From NCBI GenBank assembly GCA_003225215.1, contig QIBC01000118.1, positions 1 through 34,582 of the forward strand: a stretch of DNA of 34,582 nt. Reading direction: 5' to 3'. The position numbers and the translations under genes are program-made. Shown one piece after another: positions 4,333 through 33,387 of the stretch; the first letter of the stretch is position 1, and each line of letters opens with the position of its first letter. The notes beneath the pieces are model-generated. The model did no database searches. It saw nothing but the letters and a program-made list of their open reading frames with translations, and was not told the DNA's origin. This stretch comes from Acidobacteriota bacterium. GTDB lineage: Bacteria; Acidobacteriota; Terriglobia; Terriglobales; Acidobacteriaceae.

Positions 4333-6189
4333 TCACAATCGGCAGATCAGCAGCTCTCTTTCGTATACCATTTCGGGAGGAAGGTGATCGTGCAATTTGA
4401 TGAACAGCTCTTCATGGCCGATTACCTCTAATTTCCACGCATCGCGATCGACCGTCTGCAGCTCTTCGAATTTTTCTCGCGGGAAATCCAGCGCACGCCA
4501 TTCGATGTCTTCGTATCGCGGCACCCAGCCGATGGGGGTCTCGCGGCCGACCACACGTCCATGGACGCGATCGACGATCCATTTCAGTACCCGCATGTTC
4601 TCGCGGTATCCGGGCCAGAGAAAGCTCCCATTCTGGTCTTTGCGGAACCAGTTTACGTGGAAGATGCGCGGCGTCATGCTGAGGAGCCGCTGCATCTTGA
4701 GCCAGTGGCGGAAGTAATCGCCCATGTGATATCCGCAGAACGGGAGCATCGCCATGGGATCGCGGCGAACTTTGCCGATTGTGCCCGCTGCCGCAGCCGT
4801 CATCTCCGATCCCATCGTGGCGCCGGCATAGACTCCGGCGCTCCAATTGAAAGCCTGGTAGACGAGCGGCATAACCGTGGCGCGGCGGCCGCCGAAGATG
4901 AAGGCACTGATGGGCACGCCGTGCGGGTCTTCCCATAGTGGATCGATGGTCGGACACTGCGATGCCGGCGCGGTGAAACGCGCATTAGGATGGGCGGCTT
5001 TCGCGCCGGTTTGCTTGGCGATCTCCGGAGTCCAGCGATTCCCCTGCCAGTCCAGACACTCGGCGGGCGGCTCTTTCGTCATACCTTCCCACCAAACTCC
5101 GCCATCCGGCGTGAGCGCGACGTTGGTGAAGATGGTATTGCGCGACAACGTCGCCATCGCATTGGGATTCGTCTCCCAGGAAGTTCCCGGAGCTACGCCG
5201 AAGAATCCCGCTTCGGGATTGATAGCGCGCAGCTGCCCCTTTTCGTCAGGACGAATCCAGGCAATGTCATCGCCTACCGTCCAAACCTTCCAGCCCTCGA
5301 AACCTTTCGGCGGGACCAGCATGGCGAAATTAGTCTTTCCGCAGGAACTGGGAAATGCCGCAGCTACGTAGGTTTTCTCTCCCTGCGGAGACTCCACGCC
5401 CAGAATCAGCATGTGCTCGGCCATCCAGCCTTCGTCGCGCGCAATAGTCGATGCGATACGGAGAGCGAAGCACTTCTTTCCCAGCAAAGCGTTGCCGCCG
5501 TATCCGGAGCCGAACGACCAGATTTCGCGGCTCTCGGGAAAATGCACAATGTATTTTTCTTTGTTGCAGGGCCAGGAAACATCTTTCTGTCCCGGAGCCA
5601 ATGGCACACCAACGCTGTGCATGCAGGGAACTACGCGCTTCACGTCTTTGTCGATCTCGCGAAAAACCGGAAGCCCGATACGGGTCATGATCCGCATGCT
5701 GACGACCACGTAAGCCGAATCGGTAAGCTGGACACCGATCTGTGACATCGGTGAGTCAATCGGTCCCATGCAGAATGGCAGGACGTACATGGTTCGTCCG
5801 CGCATGCAGCCGTCGAACAGGCCCTTCAGCTTGCGACGCATCGAGAACGGCTCTTCCCAATTGTTGGTGGGACCGGCTCCGTCTTTGGAGAACGAGCTGA
5901 TGAAGGTGCGATCTTCCACTCTGGCAACATCGCTGGCGTCGGAGCGCGCGTAATAACAACCGGGCCAGAGCTTCTCGTTCAGCTTTACGAAGGTCCTACT
6001 CTCGACCAGCTGCGAGCAAAGCTGCTCATACTCCTCCCGGGAACCGTCTACCCAGTGTACGTTCATAGGCTGGGTCAACTCAGCCATCTTCTCTACCCAG
6101 CGAACCAAATGTTTGTTGGTGGTTAAGGGCTGCGTTCTATATGGGTCCCAATGGTCGGTGGCGCGCGATGATGACTCCGTGTTCTCCAC
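4333..6189 (-). CDS. pckG: Phosphoenolpyruvate carboxykinase (GTP)
   Basis: 618 aa. Motifs [42 protein letters not shown] typical of GTP-PEPCK. GTG start. Confidence 0.96.
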
Positions 6190-7529
6190 GGCTGTGCAGC
6201 ATCGTATTGTTGGTGTTTCTGCAGGTGACCTCTGCGTTCCCGCAGATGCAGCAGCAGGAAGATCGACCTCTTGATCCGTCTTTGCCGGAGGGCGTTACAG
6301 TTCGCGCGATCATTAACCGCTTCGCCGCCCAGGAACAGATCTATAAACAAGCCCGCGAGCACTACACCTATCGCCAGGTAGTTCGGATGCAGACGCTGGA
6401 CGATAGAGGTTTTCCCGACGGCGAGTACGACGATACTTTCGACGTCACTGTCAACGATCAGGGCGAGCGAGTCACCAAACAGGTTTCGCAGCCGCGTGAC
6501 ACGCTCAAGCGCATTCGCGTGACTTCGGAAGACATCGACGACATCCGCAATCGCCTGCCATTCGTGCTCACGACCGACGAGATTCCGGACTACAACATCA
6601 GGTACCGCGGCCAGCAGGATACGAGCGGAACCCACGCATACGTCTTTGATATCTCTCCAAAAGCGATGGAAGAGAACAGACGCTACTTCGAAGGTCGCAT
6701 CTGGGTTGACTCCAACCAATACCAGATCGTGAAGAGCGCAGGGAAAGCAGTGCCTGACATCTACAACGAGAACGGAGAAAATCTCTTCCCGAGCTTCACC
6801 ACCTACCGCGAACTAGTCGACGGCAAATATTGGTTCCCTTCGTACACCAAGTCAGACGACTATCTGCACTTCAGCACGGACTCCATACACGTGGTAGAGA
6901 CCGTGGACTACATCAACTACAAGCGCTTCGGCGCCGAGTCGCGCATTATTTTTGACGGAAAGCAAGTGGGCTCGGATGAATCGCAGCCATCGCGCGATCA
7001 ACGTGGAAGCGGAAACCGGCAGTCTGGGCCGCAGTCCTCTCCCACTCAGAATGATCGTCCGCAGAACAATGCCACGCCAGCAAATCCGCAGCAATCTGCT
7101 CCGGTGCAACGTCCGCGTGCGCCACAGCAGCCTGTGAACCCGCCGCCTCAGCCCGCGCAATATGTACAGCAGGCACTGATGTCTCTGGAGCAGGAGATTT
7201 CTGACGTGATTACCAAGAGAGAAGTCTCAATCCTTAATCGCATCCTGACCGATGATTATCACCTCATCAGCGCCAACGGCGATTCGGAAAGCAAATTCGA
7301 TTTTCTAAGTGACGTTCAAAAGGGACGCGCCGGAACATTTAGGCAGCCTGAGAACATGCAGGTCGAAGTGAACGGCGATCGAGCCATTGTGATTGGTGAG
7401 CGCGAGGAATCGATTCCCACTGATCGGAATCGAGTGCAAACAGCGCGCGTCCGTTTTACCGATACTTTTGTCCGCCGAGCAGGAGAGTGGTTTTTAATTC
7501 AGACAAAAGAGGCGGGAGTTCGGAGATAA
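6168..7529 (+). CDS. Secreted protein: N-terminal outer-membrane-lipoprotein-sorting-like region, Q/P-rich linker, C-terminal DUF4440/SnoaL-like domain
   Basis: Signal peptide [27 protein letters not shown]-terminus [33 protein letters not shown]...[23 protein letters not shown] resembles DUF4440. Confidence 0.7.
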
Positions 7530-7562
7530 TGCTTCAGGACTTATCTGCATCTAACCTCTCTC

Positions 7563-12786: not shown

Positions 12787-12879
12787 GCAATCCTCCCGAA
12801 TTCAGCCTTCTGATCTAGGTGTCTTCATTGATGGTAACAAGCCGGGATGGGCTAACATCAGGCATCTATAATCTTCTCG

Positions 12880-17265: not shown

Positions 17266-17447
17266 GATGAGGTCATGCGCAATTCGCCCCAGCTTGGCGA
17301 ATCTTTAACGGGCGTGGGGATGGAATCGCTGCTCATGGATAGACCAGGGTCGCCCTAAAATAACTTGGTCGCACCACTATTCTGAGCGCAATTGCTCACC
17401 GGATCATTACTAGTAATTGGGATGGCGATTACGTTAGTAAGTTCCCG

Positions 17448-18992
17448 CTAGCTCGCAAACTCGCTTCGATGGCGACTGTAGAAGAAGTAGATCACGAGGC
17501 CTACGATCAGCCAGCCGAAGAAGCGCAGCCAGGTGAGAATCGGCAGCCCCGCCATGAGTAGGAGACAGAACGCAACACTCAAGATTGGGGCGACGGGGCC
17601 GCCTGGAGAGCGAAACCCGCGATGCCGCCCGGGTTCGCGATAACGCAGGATCAATACTCCGATCGAGACGAGAACAAACGCGAAGAGCGTCCCAATGTTG
17701 GAGAGGTCGGAAGCTGTGCCGATGTCCAGCAATCCTGCAGGTAGCCCAACCACGAATCCCGCAACCCAAGTTGAAAATGCTGGAGTACGAAAGCGCGGAT
17801 GGACGTTGCTGAAGAGCTTGGGCAGCAACCCGTCGCGCGACATGGAGAACCATACGCGCGCTTGTCCCAGTTGAAATACCAGGATCGAAGAGATCATTCC
17901 CATCATGGCACCAAACAGCACAACCAATCGAATCCACCGCAGCATGCCACCGCCGGGAATCAAAGAAAGCTTCTTGAGCGCATTTACCACCGGCGCAGCG
18001 TCGTCAATCATCGACTGCCATGGCACGAGTCCGGTCAGCGTCACGGCCACTCCGACATAAAGCAGCGTGCAGACTACGAGTGTGGCGATGATCCCAATCG
18101 GTATATCGCGCTGCGGATTACGCGCTTCTTCGGCTGCAGTCGATACAGAATCGAATCCGATGTATGTAAAGAAGATGATGGAGCCGCCAGTTAGTACTCC
18201 GGACCATCCATTGGGAACGAACGGGTGGTAGTGGGACGGATGGGTGAAGTGTGCGCCGGCTATGATGAATGCCAGGATTGCTGAAATTTTTAGCAGCACC
18301 ATTACGTTATTGGTCTCAGCCGACTCGCGGATGCCGCGTACCAGGACTACTGTAATCAGCATCACGATCAGAAACGCTGGGATGTTGAATCCCGGGTGCC
18401 AGCCAGGACTGTAGATCATGTTTCCGGCAAGATCGCTAAGACCTCCAGGGAGGTACGCTGGAGTAATCCATTTTGCTGTGGGATGAATGCCGAACCAGTC
18501 GAACAGGTCGACAAAATGCGCGGAAAATCCGATGCATACCGCGATGTTGCTGACCGCATATTCCAGGATCAGATCCCACCCGATGATCCACGCGATCAGT
18601 TCCCCGATAGTCGCATACGTATACGTATAAGCGCTTCCCGCAATGGGAATCATTGACGCCAGCTCGGCATAGCACAGAGCCGTGAAGGCGCACACCATGG
18701 CTACCAGGACGAGCGAGAGCGCGAGTGCAGGTCCGGCTCCGGGACGCCCAAAGGTCGCGGAGTGTCGAATCAGATAATCGAGGAGCGGGGCATTGAGAAT
18801 TGAGGAGGTGTCGAACTTTTGTCCCGCGATGGCCGTCCCGATGACTGTAAAAATTCCGGAACCGATCACAGCGCCAATGCCCAAAGCAGTCAGGGACCAA
18901 GGACCAAGCGTCTTTTTAAGGCGATGCTCCGGCTCTTCGGAGCTGGCAATTAATTTGTCAATGGACTTCTTCGCGAACAGTTGGCTCGGCAG
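17448..18992 (-). CDS. Amino acid permease (APC superfamily, cationic amino acid transporter-like)
   Basis: TALGIGAVIGSGIFTVIG, multi-TM, FFTYIGFDSVSTAAEEARNPQRDIPIGI. Extended past the track start (18884) because the upstream frame encodes SQLFAKKSIDKLIASSEEPEHRLKKTLGPWSL; candidate CTG start at 18992 with GGGAG 7 nt upstream. Confidence 0.9.
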   Translation of the reverse strand: MPSQLFAKKSIDKLIASSEEPEHRLKKTLGPWSLTALGIGAVIGSGIFTVIGTAIAGQKFDTSSILNAPLLDYLIRHSATFGRPGAGPALALSLVLVAMVCAFTALCYAELASMIPIAGSAYTYTYATIGELIAWIIGWDLILEYAVSNIAVCIGFSAHFVDLFDWFGIHPTAKWITPAYLPGGLSDLAGNMIYSPGWHPGFNIPAFLIVMLITVVLVRGIRESAETNNVMVLLKISAILAFIIAGAHFTHPSHYHPFVPNGWSGVLTGGSIIFFTYIGFDSVSTAAEEARNPQRDIPIGIIATLVVCTLLYVGVAVTLTGLVPWQSMIDDAAPVVNALKKLSLIPGGGMLRWIRLVVLFGAMMGMISSILVFQLGQARVWFSMSRDGLLPKLFSNVHPRFRTPAFSTWVAGFVVGLPAGLLDIGTASDLSNIGTLFAFVLVSIGVLILRYREPGRHRGFRSPGGPVAPILSVAFCLLLMAGLPILTWLRFFGWLIVGLVIYFFYSRHRSEFAS

Positions 18993-19464
18993 GGCTAAGC
19001 TCCCGGTTACGGGATAGAAATGCGTACCCCGATTTCAATGGAAGTTGCCAGATAGGTCAAGCGAGAAACCCTATACTCCAACCGACTTCATCGATTCGCT
19101 ATTCAACTTCAACGGAGAACTGGCGGCTTCTAAAACTCTCTCCAATTCAGGCTGCCGGTATTTATCACAGCGGTTTCGAAAAAATGCCAGATCGGCAAAG
19201 CTGTCGACAGAGGCTACTCTGCTCTTGAAATAGAGCGAATCTACGGAGAATTTCTGATTGTTTCCGGAATAATCACAGAAAATCCGCTAAAAATGCGCTT
19301 TTTCCTCTTGACACGGAGGAGGAATTGGCCGCATGGTATCGAACGGATGTTGCAAAAACCCGCATGGATACAGGCGAAAACGCTTTTCTTCTCCGCTCGT
19401 GTGCGATAAGATAACGCTCGATTCGCAATCCAATTTCCGACTCAAACCCCGCTAAGGAGGATTC

Positions 19465-19761
19465 ATGGCATCAGGCATGACCAAGACAGCCCTCGTCCGC
19501 AACATGGCCGAGAAACTTGAAATCAACAACAAACAGGCGGCAGCGTTCCTTCAGCACCTCGCTGATACCGCTATCAAGGAAACCAAGAAGAACGGCGTGT
19601 TCGTAATCCCCGGACTTGGCCGCCTGGTGAAGGCCGAGCGCAAGGCGCGCATGGGCCGCAACCCGCAGACCGGCGAACCCATCAAGATCAAGGCCAAGAC
19701 CGTCGTGAAGTTCCGCGTCGCCAAGGCTGCGAAAGACTCCATCGCTCCCAAAAAGGGCTAG
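19465..19761 (+). CDS. HU family DNA-binding protein
   Basis: MTKTALVRNMAEKLEINNKQAAAFLQHLADTAIKETKKNGVFVIPGLGRLVKAERKARMGRNPQTGEPIKIKAKTVVKFRVAKAAKD; SD TAAGGAGG upstream. Confidence 0.95.
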   Translation: MASGMTKTALVRNMAEKLEINNKQAAAFLQHLADTAIKETKKNGVFVIPGLGRLVKAERKARMGRNPQTGEPIKIKAKTVVKFRVAKAAKDSIAPKKG

Positions 19762-19781
19762 TTTCGAGTCTGCTAAAGACG

Positions 19782-19806
19782 AAGGCCGGCGTTGAGCCGG
19801 CCTTTT
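19782..19806 (+). terminator. Rho-independent terminator after HU gene
   Basis: AAGGCCGGC-GTTGA-GCCGGCCTTTT stem-loop with T-run. Confidence 0.9.
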
Positions 19807-19814
19807 GATTTGCT

Positions 19815-19950
19815 CGTCGCCATTCCGAGCCGCTGTCGCTGCGCCGAAGAATACCGACAAGTCACGCGTCAAGTATCATGGAACCACAGGGTGGTCCTCT
19901 CTCCGCGAATGTCCGCGGCGGCGGACATTGTGCTCCGCTCGGAATGACAA
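19815..19950. repeat. Imperfect inverted-repeat element with GCCATTCCGAGC / GCTCGGAATGAC ends
   Basis: tcgccattccgagccgc at about 19815-19832 and gctccgctcggaatgacaa at 19932-19950. Confidence 0.55.
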
Positions 19951-19959
19951 AGAAGGCTA

Positions 19960-21651
19960 ATGGATCGTCAGTACATCCGAAATTTCGCGATCATCGCGCA
20001 TATTGACCACGGAAAATCCACGCTTTCCGATCGTCTCCTTGAGCTCACCGGCTCGGTGACTGAGCGCGAAATGCAGGCGCAGGTACTGGACGCGATGGAT
20101 CTTGAGCGTGAACGTGGAATCACGATTAAGGCCCATGCTGTCCGCATGATGTACACCGCCAAGGACGGCAAGCAGTACCAGCTCAACCTGATCGACACGC
20201 CCGGCCACGTGGATTTCAGCTATGAAGTTTCGCGTTCTCTAGCTTCTTGCGAGGGTGCCCTTCTCATTGTCGACGCATCGCAAGGCGTCGAGGCGCAGAC
20301 GCTTGCAAATGCCTACCTGGCAATTCATAACGGGCTTGAGATCATTCCCGTCATTAATAAGATCGATCTGCCCAGTGCCGATATACCACGCGCCAAGGAG
20401 ATGATTGAACACGCGGTTGGGCTCGATGCATCGGAAGCGCTGCTGGTCAGCGCCAAAACTGGTGAAGGGGTTCCCGATGTTCTCGAAGCCATTGTGAAGC
20501 GGCTGCCGCCGCCGAAGGGTCCGGCAGATGCGCCTCTTCAGGGCCTAATCTTCGATTCCTGGTTTGATCCGTATCGCGGCGTGATCGTGCTCAGTCGCAT
20601 TGTCGCGGGCACGTTGCGTAAAGGGATGAAGATCCGTCTGTGGTCAAATGGCGAAGCCTTCGAGGTGGAGCAATTGGGAGTGCTCACGCCGAAGCCCGTG
20701 GAGATCGACCAACTCGAGGCCGGCGAGGTCGGTTTCCTGATGGCAAACATCAAGAACGTGGCTCATGCCAAGATCGGCGACACCATTACCGAAGATGCCC
20801 ATCCGGCAATCGAAGCGCTGCCCGGATTCGAGGAGCTCAAGCCGATGGTCTTCGCCGGTCTCTACACCGTCGATGCCCATGAGCACACGCTGCTGCGCGA
20901 TGCCCTGGAAAAACTTCGACTGAACGATTCCTCTTTCTTCTTCGAGCCCGAGAGCTCGGCCGCACTTGGCTTCGGATTCCGTTGTGGATTCCTCGGCCTG
21001 CTGCACATGGAAATCATCCAGGAACGCCTTGAGCGTGAATTCAATGTCGATCTCATTACGACTGCTCCAAGCGTGCGCTATCGCGTCACAAAAACCGATG
21101 GGACCGTAGTGGAGGTAGACAATCCATCAAAATGGATTTCCCAAAGCGAGATTGCCAAAGTCGAGGAGCCGGTGATCACCGCCATGATCATGACCAACGA
21201 AGAGTACGTTGGCGGAATCCTGAAGTTAGTCGAGGAAAAGCGCGGCAAACAAAAGAACTTTGAGTATGTGAGCGCGAATCGCGTAATGCTCACGTATGAA
21301 CTGCCGTTAAACGAGATCGTGCTCGATTTCTATGATCGGCTGAAGTCGGTGTCGCGAGGATATGCGTCGCTCGACTATCACCTTTCAGGAAGCTGGGAAT
21401 CGCCGGTCGTGAAGCTCGATATCTTAATCTCCGGCGATCCCGTCGATGCGCTCTCGATCATCGTGCACCGTGACAGCGCCTATGAACGTGGGCGCGCGCT
21501 CGCTTCCAAAATGAAGGAGCTGATTCCGCGGCAGATGTTCGAGGTCGCGATTCAGGCGGCGATCCGATATTCCTCAGGAAGCATTTTTGGCTGTGTTGAA
21601 AGTCGGAGAATAAGGTCAGGAGCGCCTGCTCCGTGTCGCAAATGGATTTAA
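19960..21651 (+). CDS. lepA: Translation factor LepA (EF4), C-terminally deleted and frameshifted
   Basis: [75 protein letters not shown]. The CTD is absent after IQAAI; ancestral tail [15 protein letters not shown] lies in another frame at 21566-21613. Confidence 0.95.
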
Positions 21652-21656
21652 GGTTA

Positions 21657-22397
21657 ATGAGCCAACACTCCAAAGAGAACTGTCATCTTTCTCTCGCGTT
21701 TTTCTCGCGATTGATCTGCTGTCGTTTCGTTATCCATGCGTCTTCTCTGAAGATCTTGTTGGCCTTTACGTTATTCTTTTCAGCCACCTTGCCACTTGCC
21801 GGCCAGACTCCGAACACCGCATTTCTCAGTTGTTGGGAAGGCAAGGACCGAAGCAATTTCCAATCGCGTCGGGCGAAGACCCCGACGGCAAAGTCAAGCG
21901 GAGGCTTCGCTTACGCCGAGGCGATCGCCGAAGCCACCAAAGACATGGGCGAGGCGCAGTTCTGCAAGAACAAGGTGCAGCTCTTCTACTCCAAAGACGG
22001 AAGTGACTACAAAGTCGTATATGAAAAAGCCGGGCTGGAGGATCAAGGCGTAGGCATACGAGTCCTCGGCTGGTCGCACACCGGGAGTCAGCTCCTGGTC
22101 GAAGTTGGTGTATGGGGATACGACCGTGATGCCGATGTCGTGAAGTCAGCTCTCGCGCTTGACTCAACAACCCGGCAGGTGCACGAGCTCCCATTGGCTG
22201 ACGCCTTTGAGCGCGTGCTGGGTAAAGATTGCGAATACGATTCCTCCATTGTGGGCTGGTCAAGCGACGACAGTGTTCTTGTGCGCGTTGCCAAGACACC
22301 TGCGACTACACGCTATAACCAGACTTTTTGTGTCGACAAGCCGACCGTGTACGCCTTTAATCTGCAGAGCGGCAATTTGCAGCGTAGCGCCCCGTAG
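21657..22397 (+). CDS. Secreted hypothetical protein
   Basis: Hydrophobic segment ILLAFTLFFSATLPLAGQ near the N-terminus; start uncertain (21633 or 21657). Confidence 0.6.
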   Translation: MSQHSKENCHLSLAFFSRLICCRFVIHASSLKILLAFTLFFSATLPLAGQTPNTAFLSCWEGKDRSNFQSRRAKTPTAKSSGGFAYAEAIAEATKDMGEAQFCKNKVQLFYSKDGSDYKVVYEKAGLEDQGVGIRVLGWSHTGSQLLVEVGVWGYDRDADVVKSALALDSTTRQVHELPLADAFERVLGKDCEYDSSIVGWSSDDSVLVRVAKTPATTRYNQTFCVDKPTVYAFNLQSGNLQRSAP

Positions 22398-22513
22398 TCA
22401 TCCTCGGCGGCTGAAGTCGTCCGAAGGCAGAATCTCAGAATCGGCGGCCTTCGTTCGTAGAAGCCGCAGACCGTCGCAACGACTTCTGAGATATTCTCAA
22501 CGTCTGTTTTTCT

Positions 22514-23569
22514 ATGAGCGCCGATCCTCTCCTCGTGGTGATTCTTGGGCCCACAGCCAGCGGCAAGACTGCCCTGTCGCTGAGACTCGCCGAGCAATTC
22601 GGAGGCGAGATCGTGAGCTGCGACTCGGTAGCGGTATATCGCGAGCTAGAGATCGGCACCGCGAAGCCGACGAAAGCGGAGCGGCATCGCGTGCGCCATC
22701 ATTTGATTGACGTCGCGTCTCCTATTGAAGATTTCACTGCTGGCGACTATTCACGCCTGGCTCGAAAGACCATCGCTGATATTCGCGACCGCGGATCTCT
22801 GCCGATCGTAGTTGGAGGAACTGGGCTCTACCTGCGCGCTCTGCTCGAAGGTCTCTTCGAAGGCCCCGCCCGCTCGGAGCAGCTTCGCATTCGGTTGCGG
22901 CGCCGGGCCGATCAGAGGACCATCGAACATCTGCACCGCATTCTCACTCGACTCGATCCGGAAGCGGCAGCCCGGATTCATCCGAACGACACTCCCAAAC
23001 TGATTCGTGCCATCGAGGTCTGCCTGCTGGCGGGCGAGCGGCTCACAGTGATGTGGGACAAGGGGCGCGACCCGCTTGTAGGTTTTCGCATACTGCGCAT
23101 CGGTCTGGAACCAGAGCGTAACGGGCTGTATGAACGCATCAACGCTCGTTGTGCTGCGATGTTCGAGGGAGGTCTTATCGACGAAGCGCGACGATTGCTC
23201 ACGGCCTATCAAGCACCGGAAACGGCAAACGAATCCGACCGACGACCAGTTGCGCGTCCCCTCGGTTCTCTAGGCTACCGGCAAGTATTGCAGTACCTGC
23301 GCGGGGAGCTTTCAGCAGACCTGGCTCTACTGGCCGCTCAGCAAGCACATCGCAATTATGCCAAGCGCCAGCTCACCTGGTTCCGCCGCGAGCCAAACGT
23401 AAGCTGGTTCCCTTCTTTTGGAGATGATCCAGAAGTCCAGTGCGAGGTTGCGAAGATGATCGCGCAAGAGCTAGGCGGCACAAAGGAGCAGCCGCGGGAT
23501 GCCTCGTCCGAACCCGCGTTGACTTCACAAGCCTCTACGGACGCTACCGAAAAGCTCAAAATCTTTTAG
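22514..23569 (+). CDS. miaA: tRNA dimethylallyltransferase
   Basis: VVILGPTASGKTALSLRLAEQFGGEIVSCDSVAVYRELEIGTAKPT, HHLIDV, VVGGTGLYLRALLEGL, GYRQ, AKRQLTWFR. Confidence 0.95.
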   Translation: MSADPLLVVILGPTASGKTALSLRLAEQFGGEIVSCDSVAVYRELEIGTAKPTKAERHRVRHHLIDVASPIEDFTAGDYSRLARKTIADIRDRGSLPIVVGGTGLYLRALLEGLFEGPARSEQLRIRLRRRADQRTIEHLHRILTRLDPEAAARIHPNDTPKLIRAIEVCLLAGERLTVMWDKGRDPLVGFRILRIGLEPERNGLYERINARCAAMFEGGLIDEARRLLTAYQAPETANESDRRPVARPLGSLGYRQVLQYLRGELSADLALLAAQQAHRNYAKRQLTWFRREPNVSWFPSFGDDPEVQCEVAKMIAQELGGTKEQPRDASSEPALTSQASTDATEKLKIF

Positions 23570-23719
23570 TCCTAGGCCCCAAGATAAAGCGGAGTGCCGC
23601 TTGACCCACCCGGCGAACTGCCGGCAACTGACATTCTTGCCGAACCATGCGTGGCACCCGCCGGGCGGGGGCACCCGGCGCTCCATTTTCATGCTCCTTC
23701 TCTCTGTTATCTTGGCTCC

Positions 23720-25660
23720 ATGTTGATTTCCAGGCTTAGGGCCATCGTCATCGTTCTGCTGCTTGTCATTCCTGCCTTCGCCAAGGAGGAGAAGTATTCC
23801 AAAGCGCGTCCCGTTCAACTTACATCTGAGGGCAACAAGTGGGCGGAAAAAACGCTCAGGAAGATGTCTCTCGAAGAAAAGATCGGGCAGATAATCCAAA
23901 TCCGCGCGTACGCTGATTTTCTCAACGTCGAAAGCGATGCATACCGGCAAGTCAGCGAGGCGATCAAGAAGTACCACCTCGGCTCGATCATCCTGACGGT
24001 GCGCGTCTCCGATGGACTCCTCGTGAAAGATCTACCTTACGAGGCAGCCGCCGTAACGAATCTTTTTCAGAAGGAATCGAAGCTTCCGCTGCTGGTGGCA
24101 GCTGACTTTGAGCGTGGACTCTCTATGCGGTTGAATGAGACTCCCGCGTTTCCGCACGCAATGGCATTTGGCGCCACTCAGAATCCGGAGTTCGAGGAGA
24201 AATTCGCCGCAATCACTGCCCAGGAATCACGCGCTATCGGCGTGCACTGGAATTTCTTTCCGGTCGCTGATGTCAACATCAATCCCAAGAACCCGATTAT
24301 CAACACGCGTTCTTTTGGAGAGGATCCGCAGGCAGTCGCGGCGATGGTCGCGGCCTATATCAAGGGATCGCGAGAGAATGGCTTGCTGAGCACCGCCAAG
24401 CACTTTCCCGGACATGGCGACACGGCCACCGATTCCCATCTTGGCGTTGCTACCGTTTCCGGCGACACGCAGCGGCTTGAATCCGTCGAGCTCCCGCCCT
24501 TTCAGAAGGCTGTTGAGGCCGGCGTTGATTCCATCATGGTTGCGCACGTCACGATTCCCGCTTTGGAGCCCGATGCAGACAAAGTCGCAACTACCTCACG
24601 CAAGGTTGTGACAGACCTGCTCAAGGACAAGATGCACTTTCAGGGTTTAATTGTCACGGATGCCCTCGAAATGCACGGTTTAACGCGTCTTTATCCGGAG
24701 AACGGCCCCAATCCTGCCGGACGTGCCGCAGTGGACGCAGTAAAGGCCGGCAACGACATGGTTCTGCTGCCCTCAGATCTCGACGGCGCTTTCAAAGGTC
24801 TGGTCGAAGCGGTCAAGAACAAAGAGATTTCGCAACAACAGATTGACACGTCAGTGCTCAAGATCTTGCGCGCCAAAGCATCGCTCGGACTGCACAAGGC
24901 ACGCCTCGTCGATCTGGAAAACGTCTCGCGCATGGTGAGCCGTCCGGAGAGCATCGATTTCGCGCAGCAGGTTGCTGATTCGGCTGCAACTCTGGTCCGA
25001 GACAATGGACAAGTGCTTCCTTTGCCCCTGTCGGCCCAGCGCCTTGCGGGAACCTACGCGTCGGCCGGTACGTATCGTTCTCCAGGCTCGGAAGCGGCAG
25101 TGGTCGCCGTGGTTATTACCGACGATGTCCGCAGTGAGTATGGCCGAGTGTTTGAAATCGAACTGCGCCGTCGATCGAGGGCGAAAGTTTACCTCGTGGA
25201 CGCCGATATCGCAGGAGGGATGACCCCCGAGATTCTTGACGCCGTCAGGCAGGCAGAGAAGGTCGTGATTGCGGCATATGTTGTGCCCACGGCAGCCAAG
25301 CAGACGGTAGTCAACGGACAAGTGACGAACACCGTCGGGCTAAACGATGCAACCGGAAATCTGATGCAGCAGTTGCTTCGGGCGGCAGCACAAAAAACCG
25401 CGGTGATTGCTATGGGGAATCCATATCTGGCATCGAACTTTCCCAGCGTGCAGACGTATATATGCACGTACTCGAACGCGCCCACTTCGGAACGGAGCGC
25501 AGTGAAGCTGCTGTTCGGCGAGATGCAGCTGAAAGGCAAGCTTCCGGTGAGTTTGCCGGGAATCGCCGATCGCGGTTTCGGGTTGGAGCTCAAGCCGGAG
25601 GAGCTGCGCGTTGCCACGGCGCCGACGAAACCTACATCAGGAGCAGCTCAAATCGAATGA
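23720..25660 (+). CDS. Glycoside hydrolase family 3 protein (beta-N-acetylhexosaminidase/NagZ-like catalytic domain), secreted
   Basis: Signal peptide MLISRLRAIVIVLLLVIPAFA; KHFPGHGDTATDSH and VTDALEMHGL motifs; MSLEEKIGQI. Confidence 0.88.
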   Translation: MLISRLRAIVIVLLLVIPAFAKEEKYSKARPVQLTSEGNKWAEKTLRKMSLEEKIGQIIQIRAYADFLNVESDAYRQVSEAIKKYHLGSIILTVRVSDGLLVKDLPYEAAAVTNLFQKESKLPLLVAADFERGLSMRLNETPAFPHAMAFGATQNPEFEEKFAAITAQESRAIGVHWNFFPVADVNINPKNPIINTRSFGEDPQAVAAMVAAYIKGSRENGLLSTAKHFPGHGDTATDSHLGVATVSGDTQRLESVELPPFQKAVEAGVDSIMVAHVTIPALEPDADKVATTSRKVVTDLLKDKMHFQGLIVTDALEMHGLTRLYPENGPNPAGRAAVDAVKAGNDMVLLPSDLDGAFKGLVEAVKNKEISQQQIDTSVLKILRAKASLGLHKARLVDLENVSRMVSRPESIDFAQQVADSAATLVRDNGQVLPLPLSAQRLAGTYASAGTYRSPGSEAAVVAVVITDDVRSEYGRVFEIELRRRSRAKVYLVDADIAGGMTPEILDAVRQAEKVVIAAYVVPTAAKQTVVNGQVTNTVGLNDATGNLMQQLLRAAAQKTAVIAMGNPYLASNFPSVQTYICTYSNAPTSERSAVKLLFGEMQLKGKLPVSLPGIADRGFGLELKPEELRVATAPTKPTSGAAQIE

Positions 25661-26259
25661 ACTCGCGCATACTTTTCGTCTCAAGCTTCGCGCTGTTGAG
25701 CGCCGTGCTGGCGCTAACAGCATGTGTAAATGTCAAGAAGAGCGACAACGGCGACAATGTCGATGTGAAGACGCCATTCGGTTCTGTAAGCGTTCGCACC
25801 GAACAGGTCAAACCCGAAGACACGGGACTGAGTGTCTATCCCGGCTCCCGCCTGGTTCCGAAGCACGGTCACGACCATGATCAGGCAAATGTGAACATTG
25901 CAAGTCCCTGGGGACAGCTCAAGGTGATCGCGCTTAACTATCACTCCGATGACGCTCCCGAGAGAGTCCTCGACTGGTATCGCAAAGATCTGCAGCAGAA
26001 GTACGGAAGGTTTCTCGAATGCAAAGGTGGAGATGTCTCACTGCATGGCCGCAAGGAAGACCAGGGCAATCAGCTAACCTGCGGCAGCGAACGAAGCAAC
26101 GGCAAAGACTTTACGTACTCGTCGGGCGATAGAAACACCCTCGAGTTGAAGACTGGAACCAACGACAAGCAGCACATCGTCGCGGTAAAGCCAGAAGATG
26201 GCGGAAGCAACATCGCTCTGGTCTATGTACAGAAGCACGGGGAGAAAGATTCGATTTGA
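25657..26259 (+). CDS. Putative lipoprotein, function unknown
   Basis: Lipobox-like LLSAVLALTAC; ATGA overlap with the stop of the GH3 gene. Confidence 0.7.
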   Translation: MNSRILFVSSFALLSAVLALTACVNVKKSDNGDNVDVKTPFGSVSVRTEQVKPEDTGLSVYPGSRLVPKHGHDHDQANVNIASPWGQLKVIALNYHSDDAPERVLDWYRKDLQQKYGRFLECKGGDVSLHGRKEDQGNQLTCGSERSNGKDFTYSSGDRNTLELKTGTNDKQHIVAVKPEDGGSNIALVYVQKHGEKDSI

Positions 26260-26263
26260 GCTT

Positions 26264-26284
26264 CGTGCCGCGTCTCGCGGCACG
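26264..26284. terminator. GC-rich hairpin after lipoprotein gene
   Basis: CGTGCCGC-GTCTC-GCGGCACG perfect stem, no strong T-run. Confidence 0.45.
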
Positions 26285-26333
26285 AGTCTTGGTCCGCTTG
26301 CACACTCCTAACTCACTGATTTAAGTTCGACAG

Positions 26334-26987
26334 GTGGAGCAAACCTGTCATCGCTGCGGCGCCGTGCTAGGCGCTGGTACCGCGTTTTGCAGCCAGTGCG
26401 GCGCGCCTCAGGTTCGTGTTCCGGAAACGGTGACTACTCCTGTTGCCACTGACAATCCTGGTCCGGCAACTTCGGAAGCCGCCCAGAGCTCCGGTTCATT
26501 GATCAATTGGAGACACGCTTTACCTTCTGCCATCACTGCTGGACTGGGGATGGCGGTCGCCTCGACGTTGCCCATCGTTAACGTGTTGTTCCCGTTATGG
26601 ATGCTCGGCGGAGGATGGCTGGCAGTGATTTTGTACCGACGCCGCTCTCCATTGCTGTTGTTGTCGTCGACGATTGGCGGGAAAATCGGCGCTCTCGCTG
26701 GACTTCTGGGATTTCTCTTCTTCGCGGTATTTACGTCGTCGTACCTTGCTATCGAAACGCTGGCGATGCACCAAGGAGAGCAGATTCGCGCGCTGCTGAG
26801 GAGCGCGCTGGATCAGACGGCTGCAAACAATCCGCAGACGCAGGCGATCTCCCAATGGGTACAGACACCGGAAGGGCTCGCGGTGTTCGTTGCGTTCGGC
26901 ACGTTTCTGTTTTTTGTCGCCTTTCTGTTGCTCTCGACCGCAGGCGGTGTATTTGCCGCATCTCTTGGGCGCCGAAAGCTTCGTTAG
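26334..26987 (+). CDS. Zinc-ribbon domain membrane protein
   Basis: CHRCGAVLGAGTAFCSQCGAP ribbon then several TM segments; GTG start. Confidence 0.75.
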   Translation: MEQTCHRCGAVLGAGTAFCSQCGAPQVRVPETVTTPVATDNPGPATSEAAQSSGSLINWRHALPSAITAGLGMAVASTLPIVNVLFPLWMLGGGWLAVILYRRRSPLLLLSSTIGGKIGALAGLLGFLFFAVFTSSYLAIETLAMHQGEQIRALLRSALDQTAANNPQTQAISQWVQTPEGLAVFVAFGTFLFFVAFLLLSTAGGVFAASLGRRKLR

Positions 26988-27102
26988 TCACGCTCGCCCG
27001 AACATTTCAAAGCGCTGTTCGCCTGGAACAGGTGGCGCGCTTGCCTATAACGATGTTAGAAATGTTATTTCAGTAACTCGCAGAGGTGACTGTCCCCCAG
27101 CT

Positions 27103-27645
27103 ATGCCGATTCAAGATCGAGTTGCCGCCGCCCGACGTGTTGACGAAGTCCTGCGCAACACCATTCAAATGGCCGGATTTCGCCTGAAGTACCGCATCAG
27201 GGCGAATCCGCCGATGAATACCAGTATCGGTGAGAGCCCGGAAATCATGGTCGAATTTGCTGGGCCCGATAGCCCGCTGCTTTTGGAGCGCAATGGCGAG
27301 CTCTTGCGCGCGCTGGAGCATGTGTCCTTGAAAGTGCTCCGCCTGGAATCGGAGGAGCACGACAAGCTCAGCTTCGATTGCATGAATTTCAAGACGCTGC
27401 GAGCCCAGGAGCTGAAGCTCGCAGCCGAAGTCGCCGCCGAACGCGTGCGCAAGACCGGCCAGCCGTATCAATTTGCGCCGATGTCCGCCCGCGAACGCCG
27501 CATGGTCCACCTCGCCATGCGCGATCACGCCGACCTCCGCACCGAAAGCTCCGGCGAAGCTGAAAGGCGTTCTGTTGTCGTGTATCCGAAAGACTACAAC
27601 GGCGCTGCGCCAGTCCCGATGATGAGAGGGCGTGGGAGACGATAG
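27103..27645 (+). CDS. Jag/KhpB-like R3H-domain RNA-binding protein
   Basis: R3H region AAERVRKTGQPYQFAPMSARERRMVHLAMRDHADLRTESSGEAERRSVVVYP; degenerate KH-like region before it. Confidence 0.8.
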   Translation: MPIQDRVAAARRVDEVLRNTIQMAGFRLKYRIRANPPMNTSIGESPEIMVEFAGPDSPLLLERNGELLRALEHVSLKVLRLESEEHDKLSFDCMNFKTLRAQELKLAAEVAAERVRKTGQPYQFAPMSARERRMVHLAMRDHADLRTESSGEAERRSVVVYPKDYNGAAPVPMMRGRGRR

Positions 27646-27651
27646 GCAAGT

Positions 27652-27754
27652 TTCAGTAACCAGCATTCAGTTCTCAGTAAAGGCTGAAAAGCAAACGATC
27701 GCGACGAAGCCGGCGGTTTTACTGACAACATATAACTGAGTACTGATTAACTGG
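27652..27754. repeat. Second TCAGTACTCAGTTAT-family inverted-repeat block
   Basis: ttcagtaaccagcattcagttctcagtaaa (left) and tttactgacaacatataactgagtactgattaactgg (right); right arm reverse complement resembles the block at 12160-12190. Confidence 0.55.
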
Positions 27755-32005: not shown

Positions 32006-33387
32006 CTACTGCGCATTTCTTCGCAATGCCTTGCCCGCCAGCGTCCCGTTGTACTTGCCATCTTCGACCGCAAGCTTTCCGTTGACCATCACATAGCGCA
32101 TGCCCGTTGCAAGCAGCTCGGGCTTTTCGTAGGTCGCCTGATCGGCAATAGTCCTCTCATCAAAGACAATCACGTCGGCGAAGTAGCCGACGCGCAGCCA
32201 TCCACGTTCCTTGATTCCAAGACTTTCTGCCGCCAGCGCGCTGCTGGAGCGAATTGCAAACGGCAGACTCACAACCCTTCGCCTCAGCGCATATTCTCGA
32301 ATCTTCCGAGGGAAGGTGCCAAATTTGCGCGGATGCCCCGGCGATCCGTCCGAACCGGTCATCACAAAATCCTGCTTCATGAAGTTCTCGATGTCGGCCT
32401 CGCTCATATTGAATGACGCGACATCGTTAGGTCCCGCCTTGATCAGCTCAATGGCTGCGCTAAGCGGAGATTCATGCCGCTCATCGGCGATCTGTTGCAG
32501 GTTGTTGCCCGTGGCACGCGAATCTGCTGATGCGGTGATCAATAGCGACTGGGCGCCACCCCGGCGCTTTAGATTTTGCTCCATCTCCGCAAGCAAACGC
32601 GGTCGCGTACCGGGATCATCGAAGCGCTTGAGCATCTGGTCGCGGCCGCCGGCTTCGGCCCAGCGCGGCACGAGCACCGGAACCAGGCTCGTGCCCGATG
32701 CGTTGTAAGGATACTGATCGGCAGTTACGTCGATCCCTTGCGCCTTGCTCGATCACTTCTTCGGTCGCGGCAAAACTGCAGGGCGCGTAGAAGAGTCCCG
32801 CCGACATACCGAATGCTCCCTCATTCATTCCTTGCGCCACGAGCTGCTTCATCTGCTCTAGTTGCGCGGGACTCGGAGCTGCGTCGGACATACCCATCAC
32901 TTGGCGACGAACCGAACACATACCGACGAGAAGTGCCGCGTTGGTTCCAATTCCTTGCTGATCCCACTTCTGCAAAGCGCTGCCAATCGGCAGCGGACTA
33001 GTGCCATCGTTTCCGGTAATGACCGTCGTCACACCCTGCATGAGATAAGCGATGTTACCGTGGCGCTGAGGACTACTGAGGTCGTCGAATGTATGCGTGT
33101 GTGGATCGATAAAGCCGGGGGCAACTATCAAGCCATGGGCGTCTATCACACGCACCGCGGCTGGCTTGGTCTTAGAGGAATCGCCGACGAAGATGATGCG
33201 GTCATCTCTTATGCCTATATCAGCGACTCGAGGCGGGGCGCCCGACCCGTCAATCAGCTCTCCTCCGGTGATCAGCAGATCGAGGCGCTGTTCCGTTGGC
33301 TGCTGGAGCAGACTGGGACCAGATGCACTCCCCGGGGACGAGGAGTAAAAAAGTTAACGCGAGCAGCCAGTATCCACAGTTTCGCAT
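32006..33387 (-). pseudogene. D-aminoacylase / N-acyl-D-amino-acid deacylase-like amidohydrolase, disrupted
   Basis: Signal peptide MRNCGYWLLALTFLLLVPGECIWSQSAPAA (from 33387), then LDLLITGGELIDGSGAPPRVADIGI...VAPGFIDPHTHTFDDL in another frame, then QGIDVTADQYPYNASGTSLVPVLVPRWAEAGG...FVMTGSDGSPGHPRKFGTFPRKI in a further frame. Confidence 0.88.

Follow-up and report, generated by a model that had tools for sequence, protein, structure and literature searches.

A Frame-Breaking Gap in lepA of an Acidobacteriaceae Draft Genome, Most Probably a Local Assembly Error

Introduction

LepA, also known as elongation factor 4 (EF4), is recognized with the NCBIfam model TIGR01393 and, at its C-terminal domain, with the Pfam family LepA_C (PF06421). 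E. coli EF4 proteins truncated after residue 520 or 555 were reported to keep nucleotide binding, intrinsic GTPase activity and ribosome association (PMC4339808). In these truncations the K_M of the ribosome-stimulated reaction is increased at least ten-fold (PMC4339808). The deletion of lepA from E. coli is reported to cause no obvious growth defect (PMC4245954).

Local assembly errors in metagenome-assembled genomes (MAGs) are known to corrupt protein-coding genes (PMC7111523). There, consensus errors at unresolved points leave genes that are incomplete or incorrect.

The lepA gene analyzed here, from a draft genome of Acidobacteriaceae, can be compared with all of these. It agrees with canonical LepA (TIGR01393, PF06421) at residues 1-535 and again at the last 15 residues. 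Between them, some 49 codons belonging to the C-terminal domain have dropped out and the reading frame is interrupted, a change confined to this assembly. The E. coli truncations after Pro520 or Gly555 likewise lack the distal portion of this domain (PMC4339808). Those proteins are, however, engineered and clean, while the lepA reading frame here is shifted and the organism probably makes no such product. The likeness to the MAG errors lies in the incomplete gene that results; read support is the defining test for those errors (PMC7111523), whereas the lepA case was judged from assembled sequences.

The lepA Junction

The window, meaning the whole stretch of DNA that was analyzed, is 34,582 nt long. 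The genome that holds it (designated G000) amounts to 4.94 Mb in 421 contigs and is 88% complete; the contig count and the completeness suggest that it is a metagenome bin. The lepA open reading frame (ORF) called on the plus strand occupies positions 19960-21651 and encodes 563 amino acids. It matches TIGR01393 with 848.1 bits, well over the curated cut-off of 533.9 bits, although the match covers only positions 2-532 of the 595 profile positions. The LepA_C profile is matched in frame at positions 1-47 of 107, which falls short of the complete domain.

Codons 1-535 (19960-21564) are intact. The protein is canonical as far as ...FEVAIQAAI, whose last codon is ATC at 21562-21564. The junction lies at 21562-21568 on the plus strand, where blastn and alignment with the loci of the same genus revealed that 146 nt found in every relative are absent. 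The DNA reads ...GCG GCG ATC (21562-21564), a C at 21565 that can be assigned to neither side, and then GAT ATT CCT CAG GAA GCA TTT TTG GCT GTG TTG AAA GTC GGA GAA TAA (21566-21613). The sequence that follows the canonical part directly, GATATTCCT...GAATAA, is thus the usual end of LepA read in a different frame. This remnant of the lepA 3' end encodes 15 residues, every one of which matches the C-terminus of LepA in the nearest relative. The called ORF continues out of frame through 21565-21651, and the 28 residues added by this extension are an artefact of the junction.

Measured against each of the relatives G001, G004 and G005, the gap amounts to a net 146 nt. The first-pass annotation, made from the letters of the window, had placed the last canonical codon at ATC 21562-21564, had recognized the displaced tail at 21566-21613, and had estimated from the spacing of E. 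coli LepA that about 146 nt were missing. The DNA, the identity of the tail and the measured loss bear out all three statements. It is confirmed that the break is present in the assembled sequence, and chance is no issue.

lepA in Relatives and Across the Class

LepA was found in all five genomes of the same genus, with 93-98% amino-acid identity over codons 1-535. Complete and uninterrupted LepA proteins of 599-603 amino acids, with the missing segment included, were read from 29 of 29 relatives (the five of the same genus and 24 further ones). Each has a complete C-terminal domain, and the break is present in none. Alignment with the lepA genes of relatives had been proposed in the first-pass annotation, and it established that the tail is homologous to the LepA C-terminus. 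A truncation shared by sister genomes, which it had raised as well, is contradicted by the intact LepA of the five same-genus genomes.

The dN/dS ratio of lepA codons 1-535 against the five same-genus relatives is 0.012-0.028, which indicates strong constraint on the part of the gene that is retained. The relaxed constraint and the further disabling changes of a decaying pseudogene are not seen, given this dN/dS and a tail conserved at 15 of 15 residues. The constraint and the undecayed tail are compatible with a very recent event or with no event at all; a very recent pseudogene would look alike.

A second intact lepA, for which the first-pass annotation had advised a check, was not found. 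A LepA_C search of the whole genome recovered the truncated copy only, and a genome search for a displaced copy, with the missing segment plus the tail as the query, returned only the tail, in the window. A second intact gene or a relocated segment in G000 was rejected on these genome-wide searches.

Across the class, a LepA_C match was found in 374 of 399 sampled genomes. Partial matches were seen in five genomes, three of them at or adjoining a contig end. In the other two, the drafts G288 and G378 (loci L118 and L119), lepA is frame-broken mid-contig; the single lepA gene of G288 has two breaks, and the stretch that separates them is conserved. Three fairly complete genomes of the class, G072 (20 contigs), G299 and G337, include no protein above the LepA cut-off. 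Genuine absence of lepA may occur in some genomes of the class, for example G072.

Missing Stretches Elsewhere in the Draft Genome

A second frame-breaking junction was found on the same contig, in an amidohydrolase gene on the minus strand (32006-33155). The 5' part up to the junction (32748-33155) matches positions 1-149 of the 472 positions of the Amidohydro_3 profile, and the 3' part (32006-32747), in another frame, matches positions 271-470. Near 32748, a stretch of 209 nt that G004 possesses is missing, which breaks the frame. Intact homologues occur in G004 and G002.

Further sites were recognized in the window. At 6137-6140, between a divergent PEPCK gene and the gene at 6141-7529, 187 nt are missing against G001, which removes the starts of both genes. 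At 17301-17302, where the loss is 193 nt against G001 or 187 nt against G004, a minus-strand gene for a membrane protein is deprived of its N-terminal part. The start codons called at these two junctions are unreliable. An intergenic site at 7528-7545, with a net 147 nt missing against G001, is less clean and includes 16 unmatched nt. Natural indels may account for some of the intergenic sites. A frame break indicated by an automatic scan at position 12873 was rejected; an open frame that read through a stop beside an intact gene had served as the query there.

Against G001, other contigs of the same genome also have stretches missing: 219 nt at a less clean site and 55 nt at another on contig C11, 171 nt on C82 and 200 nt on C100. 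The genes broken by sharp deletions are unrelated: lepA, the amidohydrolase gene, an acyl-CoA synthetase/acyltransferase gene and a response-regulator receiver gene. Eight of the nine deletions counted are within 146-219 nt, with a mean of 184 nt, and the exception is that of 55 nt; the clustering of sizes was tested after the sizes had been seen, and the test is descriptive.

The comparison between G000 and G001 covered sampled contigs with about 96 kb of alignable sequence, on which the recurrence rate rests. In the reverse direction, a single difference, of 69 nt, is missing in G001 and present in G000, and no G001 gene was seen to be frame-broken relative to G000. A comparison of G004 with G001 across part of the region revealed no such deletions. 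For G000 and G001, the count of eight against one reaches only modest significance (sign test, p = 0.04), and the size clustering and the hits on coding sequence weigh more.

None of the junctions checked against G001 shares microhomology, and recombination between short repeats was rejected on this ground as a route of deletion. The readable sampled contigs of G000 contain no internal runs of N, and N-filled gaps were rejected as an account of the missing stretches.

Two other differences between G000 and its relatives were observed. Compared with the window, G001 carries the block 17446-27657, with lepA in it, in inverted orientation. Since G004 is colinear with the window, the inversion probably occurred on the G001 side. 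At locus L246, on contig C27 of G000, a long tandem-repeat protein shifts frame near 1183-1202, at the edge of the repeat region, while its homologue is a frame of 2706 amino acids in G001. This frame change is possibly due to repeat collapse.

Discussion

It is very probable that the lepA break arose as a local error in the assembly of a draft metagenome-assembled genome. The break is absent from all close relatives, those of the same genus included, and similar sharp breaks are found at unrelated loci of G000, but not in the reverse comparison except for the one 69-nt difference. The fragmented and incomplete state of G000, the strong constraint on codons 1-535 with the undecayed tail, and the mid-contig frame breaks of lepA in the drafts G288 and G378 also speak for it. 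Losses of similar size with clean edges, spread over unrelated loci, are what one would expect of short gaps that failed to assemble and were closed without Ns. Read coverage would fail over about 150-220 nt, and the flanking pieces would be joined end to end, with the intervening stretch dropped and no Ns inserted. In lepA, such a join would remove 146 nt and shift the frame. We infer both this closure of gaps without Ns and an intact real chromosome.

The first-pass annotation had taken lepA to have lost its C-terminal domain. As a statement on biology, this is not sustained, given the similar sharp deletions in unrelated genes and their near absence in the reverse direction. It had offered a recent loss, an EF4 variant devoid of the C-terminal domain and, listed last, an assembly error. 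It is the last of these that the evidence supports best.

A real and very recent inactivating deletion in this strain is unlikely. It would leave a 563-residue product that lacks the distal C-terminal domain, or else no protein that is stable. Such a loss would be tolerable, since the E. coli truncations keep the core activities (PMC4339808) and the lepA deletion is reported to be without obvious growth defect (PMC4245954), yet it is not needed to explain the data. Genomes of the class that are fairly complete but yield no LepA at the family cut-off, such as G072 with its 20 contigs, are in line with such a loss. The similar deletions in unrelated genes of the same draft, the undecayed state of the retained part and the tail, and the intact lepA of every same-genus relative argue against it. 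A reading in which the species carries a real frame-shifted EF4 devoid of the distal C-terminal domain, within a genome-wide wave of 150-220 nt deletions, is very unlikely.

A functional EF4 variant devoid of the C-terminal subdomain would bind GTP and the ribosome and have a weak ribosome-stimulated GTPase activity. It draws on the E. coli proteins cut after 520 or 555, which still bind nucleotide, hydrolyze GTP intrinsically and associate with the ribosome, and it is weakened by their at least ten-fold higher K_M for the ribosome-stimulated reaction (PMC4339808). The shifted frame, the 28-residue wrong-frame tail in place of a clean stop, and the absence of this form from every relative make such a variant extremely improbable here.

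Metagenome bins blend strains, and chimeric reads can yield joins devoid of microhomology like those observed. Even so, the possibility that the assembler picked a minority variant or a chimeric read carrying the deletion, with most of the population intact, does not readily explain several deletions of similar size at unrelated loci and is exceedingly improbable.

The assembly error, the preferred explanation, serves as a warning that the G000 draft holds several short missing stretches that break genes. Therefore, other apparent pseudogenes, truncated proteins and lost gene starts in this draft are untrustworthy without reads. If the lepA break were true, the protein would retain its GTPase core without the distal C-terminal domain, and it would provide a natural test of the role of that domain in EF4, but this reading is unlikely. 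The organism most likely has an ordinary LepA of 599 amino acids.
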